A DNA stretch of 64,000 bases from Streptococcaceae bacterium (GTDB lineage Bacteria > Bacillota > Bacilli > Lactobacillales > Streptococcaceae), in the NCBI GenBank assembly GCA_022484805.1, contig JAKVKP010000003.1:124001-188000 (forward strand), in the 5' to 3' direction. A model generated the notes under the pieces. The model was given only the letters and a program-made list of their open reading frames with translations, was not told the DNA's origin and ran no database searches. Shown piece by piece: positions 3,505 through 59,240 of the stretch (the stretch's first letter is position 1; every line of letters starts with the position of its first letter). The position numbers and the translations under genes were made by a program.

Positions 3505-4077
3505 TTAAAAAAAAATTGCCATTGCCTGTTGATTAACACTTGAAAAATGTTTAATATGCGTTTTTATTTTAATATAATCATAAATTGACTGGCTATAGCT
3601 ATGTCGATACTCCATTAAATGAACCTCCATGAAATCATAAATAAACTTTTGAATGCACTCCTCACGCCCGAGTAATCGACCACGATTACAGGTTAAATGA
3701 TAACGCTTCAATTCCTTATCTAAACCCATTAAAAAATCAAAGCTGACCACAAGATTACTTGAGTCTTGTAAAATCATCTGTTTCATATATTGAAAAACTT
3801 TTGAATCATGAATTAACCTTTTTTTTAAGAAGATTAATGCAAACTGATGATGCACAATGAAATAGACTCTTAAATTTTTGATTTCCAATGAGAATGATTG
3901 CATTAAGCCTAAAATAATAATTTGTTGCTCGAGTGATTTGACCTGAGCTCTGACCGTTTTAATACTGCATGTCAGATGATTGGATAATTTTTCTAAACTA
4001 CTACTCGAACGGTTTGCGAAATATTCCAAAATGGATAGTAATTTTAAATTCTCTTTACTACTTGCAAATAACTTCAA
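3505..4077 (-). CDS. Mga-like regulator, N-terminal HTH half (frameshifted)
   Basis: The N-terminal half of a probable Mga-family DNA-binding regulator. Seen: a winged-helix HTH at about residues 8-55 (LKLLSILEYF...LEKLSNHLTCSIKTVRAQVKSL) followed by helical sequence. The start is taken as TTG at 4077, 6 nt after a GGGGGG ribosome site, which places the HTH right at the N-terminus as in the family; an upstream in-frame TTG at 4131 has no ribosome site. The reading frame ends in a poly-T tract (ATT TTT TTT TAA), where the 2792-3493 ORF takes over in the -1 frame. It is either a pseudogene, a phase-variable gene or a frameshifting gene. It follows recO and its terminator. Confidence 0.6.
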   Translation of the reverse strand: MKLFASSKENLKLLSILEYFANRSSSSLEKLSNHLTCSIKTVRAQVKSLEQQIIILGLMQSFSLEIKNLRVYFIVHHQFALIFLKKRLIHDSKVFQYMKQMILQDSSNLVVSFDFLMGLDKELKRYHLTCNRGRLLGREECIQKFIYDFMEVHLMEYRHSYSQSIYDYIKIKTHIKHFSSVNQQAMAIFF

Positions 4078-18019: not shown

Positions 18020-19162
18020 CTACCTAATCTTTCGAGAGACACGCACTCTAGTCTCTTCGTCTATCCTAATAATTTTATCTATATCTAAATCTGTAACTTC
18101 TTGATGTGTTTCAACCGCTTCAGTAATTAACTGTTCAATTTCCAAAAATGTAATTTTACCTTGTAAAAAAGCAGAGACTGCAATTTCATTAGCCGCATTA
18201 TATACAGTTGGATAACTACCACCCTGCTCGCCAACCTGATAGGCTAGTGCCAACATTGGAAAACGTTGAAAATCCATTGCTTCAAAATGCAGCTGACCAA
18301 TTTCAGCCAGATCAAAGCTCTTTTTATTATAAATCTTTAAATGGTTTGGATAAGTCAGCGCATATTGAATTGGCTGGCGCATATCATTTGCACCTAATTC
18401 TGCAAAGCTTGCACCATCCTTCATCGTAATCATAGAATGGACAACACTTTCACGATGTAAAATTGTCTTGATTTGATTATAAGGTAAATCAAATAAAAAA
18501 TGTGCTTCAATTACTTCAAGCCCTTTATTAACCATCGTTGCTGAATCAATAGTGATTTTTTGCCCCATTGACCAATTTGGATGATTTAATGCATCCTCAA
18601 CTGTAACGCCTTCAAGCTCTGCTCTTGTACGATCACGAAAGCTACCACCACTTGCGGTTATTGTTACCGAAGCAACATCCTCACGTCGAACCCCCTGCAA
18701 GCATTGCAAAATAGCTGAATGCTCGCTATCAACCGTCAAAAGAGGCACTTTGTTTTGCTTAGCCAATGCAGTAATGAAATCCCCTGCCATCACCAGTGTC
18801 TCTTTATTAGCAATCGCAATTTGACGTTTTAATTCAATTGCGCGAATTGTTGCATGAAGACCAACCGAGCCCATCACAGCCGTTAAAATTAAATCGTAAT
18901 CCGTTGAGGCAAGCTCAACTAATCCTTCAAGCCCACTGAAAACGGTTATTTCTGGAAAATCATGCTTCAAATCTTGTGCAAATTGGGGATTACCAGCAGT
19001 AACAAATTTTGGCTTAAAGTCGCGAATAATTTCACGCGCACGTACAATATTTTGATTAAATGAAAAGCCGACTAGTGAGAACTGCTCTGAATGATTTTGA
19101 ATCACATCTAAAGTATTACCACCAACTGATCCAGTTGCCCCAAGTAAACAAATTTTTTTCAA
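18020..19162 (-). CDS. dxr: Dxr (IspC), 1-deoxy-D-xylulose 5-phosphate reductoisomerase
   Basis: NADPH-dependent enzyme of the MEP pathway converting DXP to MEP for isoprenoid synthesis. 380 residues. Seen: nucleotide loop LLGATGSVGGNTL at residues 6-18, ANKETLVMAGDF, metal-binding VDSEHSAILQCLQG, ITASGGSFRD and the substrate loop HPNWSMGQKITIDSATMVNKGLE. The start is TTG, 6 nt after AGGAG. It lies between cdsA and rseP, the order known from bacilli with the MEP pathway. Most lactic acid bacteria use the mevalonate route, so its presence is of taxonomic interest. Confidence 0.96.
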   Translation of the reverse strand: MKKICLLGATGSVGGNTLDVIQNHSEQFSLVGFSFNQNIVRAREIIRDFKPKFVTAGNPQFAQDLKHDFPEITVFSGLEGLVELASTDYDLILTAVMGSVGLHATIRAIELKRQIAIANKETLVMAGDFITALAKQNKVPLLTVDSEHSAILQCLQGVRREDVASVTITASGGSFRDRTRAELEGVTVEDALNHPNWSMGQKITIDSATMVNKGLEVIEAHFLFDLPYNQIKTILHRESVVHSMITMKDGASFAELGANDMRQPIQYALTYPNHLKIYNKKSFDLAEIGQLHFEAMDFQRFPMLALAYQVGEQGGSYPTVYNAANEIAVSAFLQGKITFLEIEQLITEAVETHQEVTDLDIDKIIRIDEETRVRVSRKIR

Positions 19163-25616: not shown

Positions 25617-28600
25617 CTACTTATGTTTTTCAAAATTTACTTTTTTATGTACAGTCACAGCTACCAGCACCAAAATTAAAACTGTACCTACAACAACCAA
25701 CTGCCAGCTATTCTTTTCATTCGTAGCAGGCAAACCATCACTTGAAATTGCTCCTCCATTACCTCCTGTACTAAGCGCAGCACCAGTCGTAGGATCAATC
25801 AGCACATCATTCACTCCTGCTGTTAATTGATTTAATAAATCACCAGTGCTTTCATCGGTTTGATTATTAACTGGAATACCCGAGCCAACAATAACATTCG
25901 TATTATTACCTGTATTGCCCTGAGTACCCGAGTTATTCGATGCATTGGTAACAGAGCTATTATTACTGTTATTATTGCTATTATTTGTAGTATTGTTCGT
26001 ATTATTATTCGTTGAAGAGCCGGTACCACCAGATGAATTTGTATTATTAGATGAACCGTTATCATCATTATTTGAACCATTATCGTCATTATTGTTGTGA
26101 TTATTTAAAATATTTTCAAAAATTTTGCCTAATTCTTCAAACATACTACCTAAATCAAGTGAAACATTGACTTCATTGTTATTAGTATTCTCACTATGAT
26201 TATCTGATGAATTATCGTTACTGTTATTGTTTTCGCTATGATTATCCGACGAATTATCATTGCTATTGTTGTTTTCACTATGATTATCTGATGAATCATC
26301 ATTGCTATTATTACTACTGCTGTCTGACGAGCTGCCATCATCAGAATTATTACCACCAGTATTGCCATTTTCAAGCATTTCACGAATTAAATCGATTAGT
26401 TCATTAATGGTGTCAAAGGCTTGCGAGTTATTATTATCATTGCTTGCCTGATTATTTTCAATCAAATCCTTAATAATATCAGCTAATTCAGTCATTGAAT
26501 CCTTAAAGGCGTTTGAAATAGCCTCAAGAGCATCCGCAAGAGAGTCAAGGTCAATATCAATATCAACGTCTACATCACTATCGCCGCCATTGGCAGTATT
26601 GGTATTGTTATTATTATTGTTGTTGTTATTATCATTATTGTTATTGGTAGTACCACCGCCACCACCATTATCACCATTACCGTTACCGTCACCATTGTCA
26701 TCGCCATTGCCATTGCCATTATTATCGTCATCATTGCCATCATCCGTAACCCAAACTCGGACTGTTTTGCTAGCGCCTGGGATGCTGTAGGTCACTAGAT
26801 ATGGCGAGGTCGTAACCTCAGCAGTGCTTACCAAATCAGCACCTGTTACGGTTACTTGATTGTATGGTACATTATTTCCTGCCTTATCCTTAGCTGATAA
26901 AAAATAATATTCTGCGTTATAGGTCGCCCCAACTTTAAGTGTAATATCCTGACCGTCAACATGAGTTAAATTAATTTCAGCTTGATTTTCTAAGACATTG
27001 ACATAAACTGTTTTACTCGCTCCATCTACTTTATAGGTTACTGCAAAAGGTGTCTCGGTAACTGCTTCTGTTGAAACTAAGTTGGCGCCTTCAACAATAA
27101 CCTCGGCAAAGGGCACATCAGTACCCTTTTTATCCTTGGCAGAAACAAAATAATTTTCGGGATCATAATCATCACCAACGTATAAATTAACATTATTACC
27201 ATCAACGTTTGCCAGATTAATTTCGGCTTGATTGTCTAGCACATGAACATTAACCGTTTTACTCGCTCCAGGAATACTATAGGTTACTTGATATGGAAAG
27301 CCTGGAATCGTCGGAGAAATAGTGCTTACGTAGTCGGCACCAGTTACAGTTACTTGGCTATAGGGCACATTGAGACCTGCTTTACTGACCGCTGCCAAGA
27401 AATAATCTTGCGCATTGTAGGTTTCGCCCACATAGAGATAGGCATCATTACCATCAACCTTTTGCAAATGAATATCAGCTTGATTTTCTAAGACATGAAC
27501 ATTAACTGTCGTACTCGCACCATCAACAGCATAAGTTACTTGATACGGGTTATCAACTGGTGTCACATCAGCCGTACTTACCAAATCAGCACCTGTCACA
27601 GTAACGTCTTCATAGGTTAGATCTGCCCCTGTCTTATCCTTCGCCGAAACAAAATAATCTTCCGGATCATAATCATCGCCAACAAATAAAACAACATTAT
27701 TTCCACTAACTGTGGCAAGATTAATTTCTGCTTCATTTTCCAAGACATGAACAGTTGCATATCTCGTAATACCGTCATATGTGTAAGAAACTTGATAATC
27801 ACCGACTTGATTCATATTGACAGCAGCGCTATTGACCGTCATTTGACTGGCAGTTAAGCTGGCGCCCGCCGCACTCGTTGCCGAAACAAAGTTTTTAGTC
27901 GCATCCCAGCTATCGCCAACATAGAGTGTGCAATCCTTTAAATTGATTGCCGCAACATTTTTAACAGTAATATTGGCAACTCGAATAATTTGCTCACCCT
28001 CAACGGTATAGGTATAGGTTACCGGATAAACTGCTGGTACCGCAGTATTAACAGTGCCAGAGGTTGTAATTAAACCAGATGACCAGTTCACAGTGCCTCC
28101 ATCTTTATCATAAGCGGCAACGAAGTTATCAACTGGCGACCATGTAGAACCCTTATCAATCGTTGAATCCTTCACGGTCAAATCTGCTGAGCGTACGAGC
28201 AAATCAAGCACTAGGGCATCTGATGCCGTAATATTACCTAGTGTTTTTGAAGCTTGTGTTTCTTGCACCCAGATATATAAATCATAATTACCCTTGGCTT
28301 GAGCGCCGTAGCCATTGGCAGCACCAGTTGAAATTGTTAAATCCTTTGATCCAGCAACACCCTCACCATACTTCACCAAATTACCAGCAGAATCGACAAT
28401 TTTATAGGCCAATTGACTCGTACTTGGCACATTAGTTGTCGTTGTGTAGGTTCGATTTGTATTCGTCCGCATAAAGGTATCATCATTATCACTATAAGTA
28501 AACCCTTCTAGACCCTTGATTACTGGATGCGCCACAGTCGAATTAACAATTGTTAAACGATAATTTTTCTTTGTACTATCTGAATGAACATCATAGTAAT

Positions 28601-29498
28601 AATTTACCGGACTGGTTGTATATTGTAAACGTTGCGTTTGCCCTGCATACTGCTTGCTACTGACAATCGGTGAAGCAAAAATAATTTTATTGGTGCTAAT
28701 ATTGGTTCCTGGACGATAACCAAACATACTATTAGATGAATATGCAGGAATTGTCGTTCCATAACCCGGTGACCAATTTGCAGCGGAAGGTGTTCCGCCA
28801 CAAAAATACCCAAGCAAATGTTGAGAGCCACCTGAAAGTTTAGTGACGTTTCTGGTAATCGCAATCATTCCAAGACCAGACTCAGAAGCTACAATATTAG
28901 GTGTTGTTGTGCCAAGCTTATATGTGTTTTTCCCTTCCGTTTCATTGGTTCCATATGGCAAATATATATATGAATTATTCACATACCTAGTTGTCGATAC
29001 ATCATACCAAGCTAAAGAACTTGCAACCGATATTTGTCTATCAATTGCTTCAAAACCACCATATGTATCCGTGCCCTCACGAACTTTATTACCCCACTTA
29101 AAGGGCTCTGATATATCATATGCTCCCGGATGGTGCCCATCATTATAATAATTTAGCTCCCAAGCTCCTGTTGCTAGAACATGTTCTGAATAGAAAGTCA
29201 GGGCTGTGTTGTCCGAAGCACCTGTTTTTGTTGACTTTGCCTTCCAAAGAATAGGAGTTTGAGCAGCTTCACGCGTACCAACCGTACCTGGAAAATGGGC
29301 AGAATAACTTGAACTTGCTAGGGGATGTCGATATTTCCCAATATAAACATTATCTCCTGCATTAATAACTACCCCTCTTGACAATGAGGGTGTATCTTCA
29401 GCCGCCGCAGCCTGCTTGACCTCAGTATTTAAAAGCAAGGCAAAGGTACCAACAGCCGATACTGTTAAAATACCATATTTGATTATTTTATTTTTCAT
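25617..29498 (-). CDS. Cell-wall-anchored repeat surface protein with LPATN sorting signal
   Basis: 1293-residue exported protein. In order: signal peptide (ILTVSAVGTFALLLN...AAAA, about 1-35); N-terminal domain of unknown fold to ~435; six tandem Ig-like units of 75-83 residues to ~912 (each with YVGDDYDPENYFVSAKDK-like and V-VHVLENQAEINL sequences); a D/N/G/S-rich stalk to ~1210 with short amphipathic helices (LADALEAISNAFKD, INELIDLIREML); then LPATNE, a hydrophobic helix and a basic tail (HKKVNFEKHK). This is sortase-substrate architecture with an N in place of the usual G. Likely an adhesin or surface-layer-like protein (inference). Start at the second ATG, 9 nt after AAGGAG. The stalk holds nucleotide repeats open to length change. 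Confidence 0.85.
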   Translation of the reverse strand: MKNKIIKYGILTVSAVGTFALLLNTEVKQAAAAEDTPSLSRGVVINAGDNVYIGKYRHPLASSSYSAHFPGTVGTREAAQTPILWKAKSTKTGASDNTALTFYSEHVLATGAWELNYYNDGHHPGAYDISEPFKWGNKVREGTDTYGGFEAIDRQISVASSLAWYDVSTTRYVNNSYIYLPYGTNETEGKNTYKLGTTTPNIVASESGLGMIAITRNVTKLSGGSQHLLGYFCGGTPSAANWSPGYGTTIPAYSSNSMFGYRPGTNISTNKIIFASPIVSSKQYAGQTQRLQYTTSPVNYYYDVHSDSTKKNYRLTIVNSTVAHPVIKGLEGFTYSDNDDTFMRTNTNRTYTTTTNVPSTSQLAYKIVDSAGNLVKYGEGVAGSKDLTISTGAANGYGAQAKGNYDLYIWVQETQASKTLGNITASDALVLDLLVRSADLTVKDSTIDKGSTWSPVDNFVAAYDKDGGTVNWSSGLITTSGTVNTAVPAVYPVTYTYTVEGEQIIRVANITVKNVAAINLKDCTLYVGDSWDATKNFVSATSAAGASLTASQMTVNSAAVNMNQVGDYQVSYTYDGITRYATVHVLENEAEINLATVSGNNVVLFVGDDYDPEDYFVSAKDKTGADLTYEDVTVTGADLVSTADVTPVDNPYQVTYAVDGASTTVNVHVLENQADIHLQKVDGNDAYLYVGETYNAQDYFLAAVSKAGLNVPYSQVTVTGADYVSTISPTIPGFPYQVTYSIPGASKTVNVHVLDNQAEINLANVDGNNVNLYVGDDYDPENYFVSAKDKKGTDVPFAEVIVEGANLVSTEAVTETPFAVTYKVDGASKTVYVNVLENQAEINLTHVDGQDITLKVGATYNAEYYFLSAKDKAGNNVPYNQVTVTGADLVSTAEVTTSPYLVTYSIPGASKTVRVWVTDDGNDDDNNGNGNGDDNGDGNGNGDNGGGGGTTNNNNDNNNNNNNNNTNTANGGDSDVDVDIDIDLDSLADALEAISNAFKDSMTELADIIKDLIENNQASNDNNNSQAFDTINELIDLIREMLENGNTGGNNSDDGSSSDSSSNNSNDDSSDNHSENNNSNDNSSDNHSENNNSNDNSSDNHSENTNNNEVNVSLDLGSMFEELGKIFENILNNHNNNDDNGSNNDDNGSSNNTNSSGGTGSSTNNNTNNTTNNSNNNSNNSSVTNASNNSGTQGNTGNNTNVIVGSGIPVNNQTDESTGDLLNQLTAGVNDVLIDPTTGAALSTGGNGGAISSDGLPATNEKNSWQLVVVGTVLILVLVAVTVHKKVNFEKHK
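26194..26319 (-). repeat. Three tandem 42-bp units in the surface-protein stalk
   Basis: Units start at 26194, 26236 and 26278 (plus coordinates), coding for SENNNSNDNSSDNH-like 14-residue repeats. Being a multiple of 3, unit loss or gain keeps the frame and changes stalk length. Confidence 0.8.
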
Positions 29499-29539
29499 CT
29501 TACGCATCTCCTTACTACCAAACCTTGAATTGATTAAAC

Positions 29540-56960: not shown

Positions 56961-57153
56961 TTTCATCCTCCATTATTTGTGACCCATTCATTATATAATG
57001 CTAACAGAAAACTGTTAAACTTTCAAACTTAAATTTTGTGTTTTATAAATTGTTTTATCGAATTAACAGACTTCATTTAGCAAGAAAATAGCAGTATAAA
57101 ATATATTATTTTTTCTTATTTAGTGGTAAACTTTTTTTATTAGGAGGTTTACG

Positions 57154-58929
57154 ATGATTGATTTGATTCATCCACAAAAAAATGATGAGATTGCTTTGGT
57201 TTTTCAAAATCAGGAAATCAGCTATCAAGCACTAAAATTAAACTGCAAAAAATATCAAGAGCTAGTGACTAAGCTTAGTAAGCGCTACGTTTTTATCAGA
57301 CCTGAAGCCAACTTAGAATTTATTTATTTATTCTATGCCTTGATTACTACCAATCATGTGCCAGTACTCCTACCAGATGGTCTATTAATTGAAACGTTAG
57401 AAATATTAATTAACCAAAATGCAATTGCAAATGAAGCAATTTTTTGGATGATGAAGCAAGATGACCTTAATTTAAAGCTCACAATCCCTAAAACATCACT
57501 CGCTGAATTAGAAAAAAGCAATAAGCAAACCAGCTTTTTAAGAGAATCAGAATTATTATTCATCGGCTTTACAAGTGGTACAACTGGACTACCAAAAGGA
57601 TATTATCGTGGAAAAGCCTCGTGGGTAAACAGCTTCAATGCGCTGTCCCAACTAGTACCACAGCAGGCAGGTAGTAAGGTTGCTGCCTTCGGTCCAATTG
57701 GCTACTCACTTAATTTATATGCCTTAGTTCAAGCACTCTATTTCGGGCAGACCTATTATCTTTATGAAAAATTCTCAGTTAAATCACTTCATGAATTACT
57801 CATCAAACAAGGGCATTGTAATTTATACCTTGTACCAACAATGATAAATGCATACTTAAACTATGCCGAAGAAAAACAAACTAGCTTAGAAAGTCCTGAT
57901 TTGACCATTTTCCTGAGTGGGGCCTCATTTCATCAAAAATCATTTCAGCGTTGTCAAAAAGTGCTTAAGGGTGCACGACTTTTTAATTTTTATGGTACAA
58001 GCGAAACAAGCTTTATTTCAATCAATCAAATTAAAGCAGCAACAAATCCTGATGATTTAGGAGAACTTTTTCCAAATGTTACGCTAAAATTAAAGGACAA
58101 GCATGCTTCGGTTGCAAGCGATATGCTATTTTCCGGTTATTTTAATAAACCACCACAAAAAATAAAGGATTTTCAGCTGAGCGATGATTTAATACTTAAT
58201 AAAAGAAATGTTACCTTAATCGGACGTCACCAAATGATGATTAAAAAGGGTGGTGAAAAAATTGCAATTGAAGCTTTGGAAAATTTTCTAAGTTCAATTG
58301 ATTCAATTCAGGCTTGTCTCGTTTTTGCTGAAGCTGATGAATACTATGGAGAAACAATTAGTGCAGCGATTGTCTGGCGGAAGGAACGTCAGAGCATTAA
58401 AGTAATCAATCAATTAATTATAGAAAAGCTTGCAAAAATCAAACAGCTTCATCATCTCTACACCGTCACTGAGCTACCATTAAAAACAAATCAAAAATAT
58501 GAACGACAAAATGTACGTCGTCTACTTCAAAGTCAAGTGATTGAAAGCTCGACAGGCGAACTAGCACTCACACATTCATTTTGGTTGAGTAAAATCAAAA
58601 TAGAAGAATATCAAAATAGCTTAGGCTATCAAAGCAGTCAGATGCCTTTAAGCTATTTCACACATCTATGGCAGAGCTTTGCATTAAAACAAATTGATGA
58701 AATGGAACCTATTTTGATGAATGAAAAAGTAAAAATGCTACATCAGCCACCACTTGATCAGGACTATCAGCTCATCTTAAAAATACAACGAGGTAACGAA
58801 GGACATCGAATTAAGTCCAGCTTGGATTGCCAAATTGATATGATTCAGCAGGAAAAAATATTCTTGATGGTTCAATTCAAGCTTGGATTTAAAAAAGCTG
58901 AAATTGAGGCGGTGCTAGAAAAATTATGA
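57154..58929 (+). CDS. Acyl-AMP ligase with fused C-terminal hot-dog-like domain
   Basis: 591 residues. Residues 1-460 are an ANL-superfamily adenylating enzyme: P-loop TSGTTGLPKG (140-149), FYGTSE (279-284), GRHQMMIKKGGEKI (358-371) and the C-terminal catalytic lysine region LPLKTNQKYERQNVRR (441-456). It should activate a carboxylic acid as AMP ester and load CoA or a carrier. Residues ~471-591 read like the non-catalytic half of a MaoC-type double hot-dog (FWLSKIKIEEYQNSLGYQSS..., VKMLHQPPLDQDYQLILKIQ). The next gene, overlapping by 4 nt, is the catalytic MaoC half. AGGAGG upstream. Substrate unknown; no acyl-carrier protein is nearby. Confidence 0.75.
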   Translation: MIDLIHPQKNDEIALVFQNQEISYQALKLNCKKYQELVTKLSKRYVFIRPEANLEFIYLFYALITTNHVPVLLPDGLLIETLEILINQNAIANEAIFWMMKQDDLNLKLTIPKTSLAELEKSNKQTSFLRESELLFIGFTSGTTGLPKGYYRGKASWVNSFNALSQLVPQQAGSKVAAFGPIGYSLNLYALVQALYFGQTYYLYEKFSVKSLHELLIKQGHCNLYLVPTMINAYLNYAEEKQTSLESPDLTIFLSGASFHQKSFQRCQKVLKGARLFNFYGTSETSFISINQIKAATNPDDLGELFPNVTLKLKDKHASVASDMLFSGYFNKPPQKIKDFQLSDDLILNKRNVTLIGRHQMMIKKGGEKIAIEALENFLSSIDSIQACLVFAEADEYYGETISAAIVWRKERQSIKVINQLIIEKLAKIKQLHHLYTVTELPLKTNQKYERQNVRRLLQSQVIESSTGELALTHSFWLSKIKIEEYQNSLGYQSSQMPLSYFTHLWQSFALKQIDEMEPILMNEKVKMLHQPPLDQDYQLILKIQRGNEGHRIKSSLDCQIDMIQQEKIFLMVQFKLGFKKAEIEAVLEKL

Positions 58930-59222
58930 AATTCTCGTTTACCATCAGCCAAGAGACATTGAAGCACTACGCACAGATTAGTGGCGATTTCAATGCAATT
59001 CATCAAAGCGGACTCGTTTATGGCGCATTAGTGCTTGCCATGATTGAAGCTCAAATTGAGGCACAGGTTTTAACAATTAAAGCACATTTTGATCGACCAA
59101 TCTTTATAAATCAATTGATAGAGGTTGAAATTCAAGGCGAAGCATTAATTGTGACAGTGAAACAAAAACGATGTATCCACGGCTTAATTAAATATCAAAA
59201 AAACGCAAGCTCTCCTCTTTAG
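58926..59222 (+). CDS. Small MaoC-like hot-dog dehydratase
   Basis: 98 residues, a minimal MaoC hot-dog. Seen: FTISQETLKHYAQISGDFNAIHQS with the hydratase dyad Asp21/His26 (D-x-N-x-x-H), VYGALVLAMIEAQ (the 'G-L' helix) and IKAHFDRPIFINQLIEVEIQGE (the strand that lines the tunnel). Single MaoC domains act on (R)-3-hydroxyacyl thioesters. Its start overlaps the ligase stop by 4 nt, so the two are made together, and it could pair with the ligase's C-terminal domain as HadA/HadB do in mycobacteria (inference). Confidence 0.75.
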   Translation: MKFSFTISQETLKHYAQISGDFNAIHQSGLVYGALVLAMIEAQIEAQVLTIKAHFDRPIFINQLIEVEIQGEALIVTVKQKRCIHGLIKYQKNASSPL

Positions 59223-59240
59223 AGAAGGACTTGCTTTTTT
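59205..59240 (+). terminator. Terminator of the ligase/MaoC pair
   Basis: GCAAG..TCTC pairs with GAGA..CTTGC; TTTTTT follows. The stop codon of the MaoC gene is in the loop. Confidence 0.75.

Follow-up and report, generated by a model that had tools for sequence, protein, structure and literature searches.

A predicted biotin-regulated acyl ligase fused to a HadA-like hot-dog domain, with a HadB-like partner encoded by the next gene

The closest described enzymes are the mycobacterial (3R)-hydroxyacyl-ACP dehydratases HadAB, HadBC and HadBD, in which a silent HadA/FAS1_DH hot-dog pairs with a hot-dog that bears the hydratase-2 motif and is encoded by the next gene. In the solved HadAB, HadB carries this motif and HadA the acyl channel (PMC4491049). 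The (R)-enoyl-CoA hydratases MFE-2 (hydratase-2) and PhaJ share the hot-dog fold and the Asp/His dyad; MFE-2 combines its two hot-dogs in a single chain, and PhaJ is a homodimer. The closest described gene cluster is staphylococcal: the yhfT-yhfS (vraA-vraB) operon of Staphylococcus aureus, called only putative, is a BirA target, and repression of yhfS-yhfT by BirA has been shown experimentally (PMC6391492, PMC7235819). From the same cluster, a stable complex of VraC and VraP has been reported, together with mutants in which expression of cell-wall genes and susceptibility to antibiotics are changed (Wang and Sun 2021, as cited in PMC10620731).

The locus described here lies in a 64-kb stretch of Streptococcaceae DNA, referred to as the window, and resembles each of these systems in part. 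It pairs a HadA-like with a HadB-like half as HadAB does, but here an acyl ligase carries the HadA-like half at its C-terminus, each half is shorter than its counterpart in HadAB, and the predicted setting is biotin control in Bacilli instead of mycolate FAS-II. Unlike MFE-2 and PhaJ, it distributes the two halves over different chains, one of them fused to the ligase. It shares with the staphylococcal yhfT-yhfS/vraA-vraB-vraC-vraP genes a related ligase, VraC- and VraP-type sequences in the same order and (predicted) BirA control; however, where staphylococci have separate genes and a thiolase among them, the window has ligase and VraC fused, the thiolase lost and bioY elsewhere in the genome.

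Table 1. Features of the fused ligase locus (window coordinates) and related loci.
Feature	Position	Strand	Remarks
Predicted BirA (biotin repressor) operator, GTAAAC-N15-GTTTAC	57126..57152	.	Overlaps ligase Shine-Dalgarno
ORF1, acyl ligase with C-terminal extension	57154-58929	+	591 aa
Ligase part of ORF1, residues 1-470	57154..58563	+	Predicted acyl-AMP/acyl-CoA ligase, ANL superfamily, YhfT/VraA branch
Fused HadA/VraC-like structural hot-dog (predicted), residues 471-591	58564..58926	+	AlphaFold, Foldseek, homology to stand-alone VraC-like proteins
ORF2, HadB/VraP-like catalytic hot-dog half (predicted), Asp21-His26 dyad	58926..59222	+	98 aa, PF01575
Probable intrinsic terminator, hairpin then T-run	59198..59240	+	RNA fold; overlaps last codons of the small ORF and closes the two-gene unit
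Proteobacterial ligase-thiolase loci			L101, L104, L105, L107-L114, L116-L122, L125, L127

An earlier sequence-only reading had described an ANL ligase extended at its C-terminus by about 120 residues, followed by an overlapping 98-residue ORF with a D-x-N-x-x-H motif, and both descriptions hold. The ORF1 stop and ORF2 start share four nucleotides (ATGA), and the small ORF contains D21-x-N-x-x-H26. ORF1 matches AMP-binding (PF00501, 1.8e-27) and AMP-binding_C (PF13193, 1.6e-6), both above cut-off, with the Pfam matches ending near residue 448; the best NCBIfam model, PRK07638 acyl-CoA synthetase, falls below its cut-off. In an alignment of 13 sequences, TSGTTG-PKG, YG-SE, D345, GR358 and K448, the C-terminal catalytic lysine, are conserved. 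By domains and motifs alike, the N-terminal part of ORF1 is an ANL-type acyl ligase, predicted to act on a carboxylic acid. In a midpoint-rooted tree built without outside ligases and containing several long branches, it clusters with Lactobacillales operon ligases (support 100/95), itself on a long branch of 1.78 changes per site. At the 3' end, RNA folding yields a hairpin of −12.9 kcal/mol (z = −2.0), the only basis for the terminator, which a consensus scanner missed; promoter and terminator consensus scans returned nothing useful at the locus.

On their own, the last ~120 residues of ORF1 have no above-cut-off match in Pfam or NCBIfam. Single-sequence searches were insufficient to identify the extension, and profiles and structure prediction were needed. 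AlphaFold, given 42 sequences, predicts residues 470-591 as a hot-dog with a pLDDT of 90.5, as the sequence-only reading had proposed for a structural domain, and the solved structures that Foldseek recovers with this model are hot-dog enzymes, with HtdX at the top and HadA chains also ranking among the best. The extension also aligns with stand-alone proteins of 113-133 aa encoded behind the thiolase gene of relatives (...PLSYFTHLWQ... with ...PKSYFLTLWQ...). A Lactobacillales profile that includes the extension (A4) matches a Paenibacillus/Psychrobacillus profile (A7) with 97% probability (E 6e-11) and a Viridibacillus-type profile with 86% probability, and the best PDB match of each of the latter two is mycobacterial HadA (5e-5 and 7e-12, respectively). 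Stand-alone relatives match Pfam FAS1_DH_region at up to 4e-22. The fused half contains no Asp/His catalytic motif. Predicted fold and the profile chain through relatives thus support the extension as a probable non-catalytic hot-dog of the HadA/FAS1_DH family. At the position where a catalytic half carries D-x-N-P-x-H, the Viridibacillus VraC homologues (L092 10242-10685, L084 10593-11036) retain N-x-N-x-L-H as a relic, which would be expected if a dehydratase half had lost its dyad.

ORF2 has an above-cut-off match to MaoC (PF01575, 4.3e-7) and contains Y-x-x-I-S-G-D21-x-N23-A-I-H26 (YAQISGD21FNAIH26), which is close to the hydratase-2 motif borne by HadB and has the Asp and His of that motif five residues apart. 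D21, H26 and G33 are invariant among 40 aligned sequences; in the window genus, Ala or Thr takes the place of the motif proline. A single-sequence search with ORF2 found no significant PDB chain; its AlphaFold model (pLDDT 94.2) has HTD2 and PhaJ as top Foldseek matches, with HadB also retrieved. In the alignment, ORF2 is a minimal hot-dog and lacks a segment that, in most relatives, separates the motif His from the central helix. These results support ORF2 as a catalytic half of HadB/PhaJ/HTD2 type, with catalysis predicted from the conserved dyad. We considered whether the HadA-like and HadB-like assignments had been mixed up and rejected this: profile A4 matches the VraP profile with only 5% probability, and since the VraC-like and VraP-like profiles show no cross-match, the two halves are distinct types. 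Predicted folds, together with HadA homology through relatives, support the HadA/HadB reading of the two halves.

We compared the locus with relatives across Bacilli, in which the gene order is bioY, ligase (YhfT/VraA), thiolase (YhfS/VraB), HadA-like (VraC), HadB-like (VraP), FabG-like SDR and FabK-like reductase, usually with bioY at the head. Among 79 named loci, all seven genes are present in 28 and both hot-dog genes in 54; of these 54, 53 keep the separate-gene order and 53 have the thiolase, the exception to the latter being the fused locus. The fusion occurs only in the window genus, in the window and in the sister species Enterococcus sp. MMGLQ5-1 (G001, locus L049), and in order- and class-level samples the other listed matches to the extension all lie in shorter frames, the 599-codon frame being found in the window (and sister) only. 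Thiolase, SDR and reductase are absent from the window-genus locus. The fusion thus appears to join ligase and VraC frames that a thiolase gene once separated, after or together with the loss of thiolase, SDR and reductase.

This gene order changes how the pair is to be read. The sequence-only reading had presented it as a compact module with no ketosynthase or carrier protein adjoining, the substrate of which may be an exogenous acid; relatives indicate that it is what is left of a longer ancestral operon and no free-standing invention. There is no carrier-protein partner at the locus, but in relatives a condensing enzyme, the thiolase, stands next to the module. Neither outcome that would have refuted the sequence-only reading was seen: the extension is predicted to be a hot-dog, and ligase homologues, although they lack the extension, have it as a separate gene with the partner gene directly behind. 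A relative's thiolase matches acyl-CoA thiolase above cut-off, and its SDR and reductase match FabG/acetoacetyl-CoA reductase and FabK, both below cut-off. By gene content the parental operon looks like a complete CoA-type elongation cycle. It encodes, with an activating ligase, all four reaction types of reverse beta-oxidation (thiolase, ketoacyl-CoA reductase, hydratase and enoyl reductase), but the predicted enzymes for hydration and reduction are a MaoC hydratase of the R type, an SDR and a FabK-like reductase; the full set occurs in relatives, whereas the window retains only activation and (de)hydration. FabH and FabF were the only thiolase hits in the window's genome and that of the sister (assemblies 90% and 99% complete), and the pair therefore cannot run a full cycle alone. 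A DXP reductoisomerase of the MEP pathway is encoded at 18020-19162 on the minus strand of the window, in keeping with the lack of a mevalonate-type thiolase in the genome. In Proteobacteria (Stappia, Roseibium, Bartonella and Comamonadaceae; Table 1), the ligase and thiolase also form a pair, several beside bioY, and VraC/VraP genes were not detected.

We next consider regulation. The operator pattern has one match in the 64 kb of the window, against 0.03 expected, and elsewhere in the genome it is matched exactly only ahead of bioY and bioB. A reversed control pattern gives a similar total genome count, and hence it is the positions of the operators, not their number, that matter. In the sister, GTAAAC-N16-GTTTAC stands at the equivalent place before the ligase, and sites in that genome occur before bioY, bioB, the ligase and at two other places, the first within a coding gene and the second at the junction where a MarR-like regulator gene and rplS converge. 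The junction site is a perfect GTAAAC-N15-GTTTAC (L136, about 3911-3937; G001:C31:147410) and has no biotin gene adjoining. The genome's BirA has 324 aa and an N-terminal helix-turn-helix. Among operon relatives, BirA-like boxes scoring at least 14 of 16 precede bioY in 27 of 62 cases, compared with 1 of 151 shuffles. We thus predict that bioY, bioB and the ligase form a BirA regulon in both species of the genus. In the window's own genome, bioY and the biotin synthase gene bioB (L036 3420-3980, L037 4048-5016) each lie behind BirA-like boxes. Taken with the folds, homology, conservation and operon comparison, these sites lead us to regard it as fairly probable that the pair is a functional two-protein activate-and-(de)hydrate enzyme, that it belongs to the biotin regulon and that it descends by reduction from what looks like a biotin-sparing chain-elongation operon.

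The same sites would also suit an enzyme of identical anatomy whose pathway makes or salvages a precursor of the biotin (or lipoate) side chain, such as pimeloyl-CoA, with BirA controlling it as part of biotin synthesis and not of fatty-acid supply. Linkage to bioY, the BirA boxes and the predicted co-regulation with bioB in the window genus all speak for this, and the thiolase, SDR, dehydratase and reductase could in principle turn glutaryl-CoA into pimeloyl-CoA. However, the co-occurrence with bioD and late biotin genes that would mark de novo biotin synthesis genes is not seen: no bioD was found in its own or the sister genome, and among 27 operon carriers bioD is above cut-off in 7, with none above cut-off in 20. 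Lacking bioD, most carriers seemingly could not turn pimeloyl-CoA into biotin along the standard pathway; in the window's own genome, bioY plus bioB without bioD is apparently a set-up for dethiobiotin-to-biotin salvage. The condensing and reducing enzymes are, moreover, missing from the window-genus locus, where no thiolase was found. We consider a precursor role unlikely, and less likely than a chain-elongation-derived module under biotin control.

Comparison with the sister species bears on whether the fused pair is kept at all. The sister retains the two genes with their overlap, as well as the neighbouring genes for a 120-aa protein upstream and a PucR/CdaR-like regulator downstream. Identity is 66% for the ligase, 54% for the extension and 70% for ORF2 (~64% for the fusion protein), and dN/dS is 0.08, 0.41 and 0.10, respectively (Nei-Gojobori; synonymous sites near saturation), which makes the fused domain the fastest-evolving of the three. 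These ratios indicate purifying selection on all three parts. A chance fusion or an assembly error is ruled out by conservation in the sister together with dN/dS. The same values can be set against the possibility that the locus is a decaying remnant, with a fusion tolerated after thiolase loss, a ligase that may still use exogenous fatty acids and a dehydratase half that is being lost. Decay would account for the loss of three operon genes, the long ligase branch, the shortened VraP and the higher dN/dS of the fused domain; however, two species this divergent keep the frames, overlap, dyad, ligase motifs and operator, and dN/dS of the ligase and VraP is about 0.1. Selection on both frames thus disfavors decay, which we regard as possible but improbable. 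For a functional pair, the long ligase branch and the fast-evolving fused domain suggest that the role of the module may have shifted; the segment missing from ORF2 and its replaced motif proline also count against such a pair.

Under the reading of a functional, biotin-regulated pair, scarce biotin would cause BirA to leave the operator, allowing expression of bioY, bioB and the ligase unit. The ligase would convert a carboxylic acid to an acyl-AMP and then to an acyl-CoA (or acyl-ACP) thioester, and the fused HadA-like hot-dog would form, with the separate HadB-like protein, one double-hot-dog active site, a heterodimer suggested by the monomer folds and gene adjacency. The fused half would hold the acyl chain while Asp21-His26 of the partner interconverts the (R)-3-hydroxyacyl and trans-2-enoyl thioesters. 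The ancestral operon, from bioY to the FabK-like reductase, would most simply have run a CoA-dependent chain-elongation cycle, and a cycle with no need for malonyl-CoA needs no biotin-dependent acetyl-CoA carboxylase. We tentatively suggest, as a conjecture held with less confidence than the pair's function, that the parental operon, staphylococcal vraABCP included, is a BirA-switched, malonyl-CoA-independent elongation system that supplies acyl chains despite a biotin-limited acetyl-CoA carboxylase, and that in the window genus the fused activase-dehydratase feeds activated 3-hydroxy/2-enoyl acids into the remaining fatty-acid synthesis. We found no malonyl-CoA-independent or biotin-sparing role described for the operon in the literature searched, which does not prove that no such description exists.

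Read with its stand-alone relatives, the fusion suggests that the two small unannotated proteins encoded behind yhfT-yhfS are HadA-like and HadB-like hot-dogs. With these identities, the operon in many Bacilli would encode all steps of chain elongation, and the function of the BirA-controlled operon becomes directly testable. The physical tie between ligase and dehydratase is a natural hint that product may pass between them.

The assignments probably extend to staphylococci. At Staphylococcaceae-type loci the order is hxlA-hxlB, ligase, thiolase, genes for proteins of 127 aa and 87 aa, proP, thiD and ung, and these two proteins (L169 5632-6275, L170-L172), which have no convincing Pfam match, match our VraC and VraP profiles with 97% probability. 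From gene order and the cluster as given in PMC10620731, we infer that the hxlA-hxlB-type loci correspond to vraABCP. VraC and VraP, so far reported to affect cell-wall gene expression, are thereby open to reinterpretation, possibly as a dehydratase. A regulatory and not enzymatic role, in which such proteins would control cell-wall genes as a complex, might be suggested by the stable complex and mutant phenotypes reported for S. aureus VraCP (as cited in PMC10620731) and by the homology of the staphylococcal-type proteins to both window halves. We regard it as very unlikely given that fold, dyad and operon partners are enzymatic, that neither half resembles a DNA-binding protein and that the cell-wall effects could arise indirectly through altered lipid supply. 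Elsewhere in the window, on the minus strand at 25617-29507, lies a gene for a surface protein of 1296 aa that contains Asn-rich repeats and, at its C-terminus, a sorting signal of the LPATNE type.
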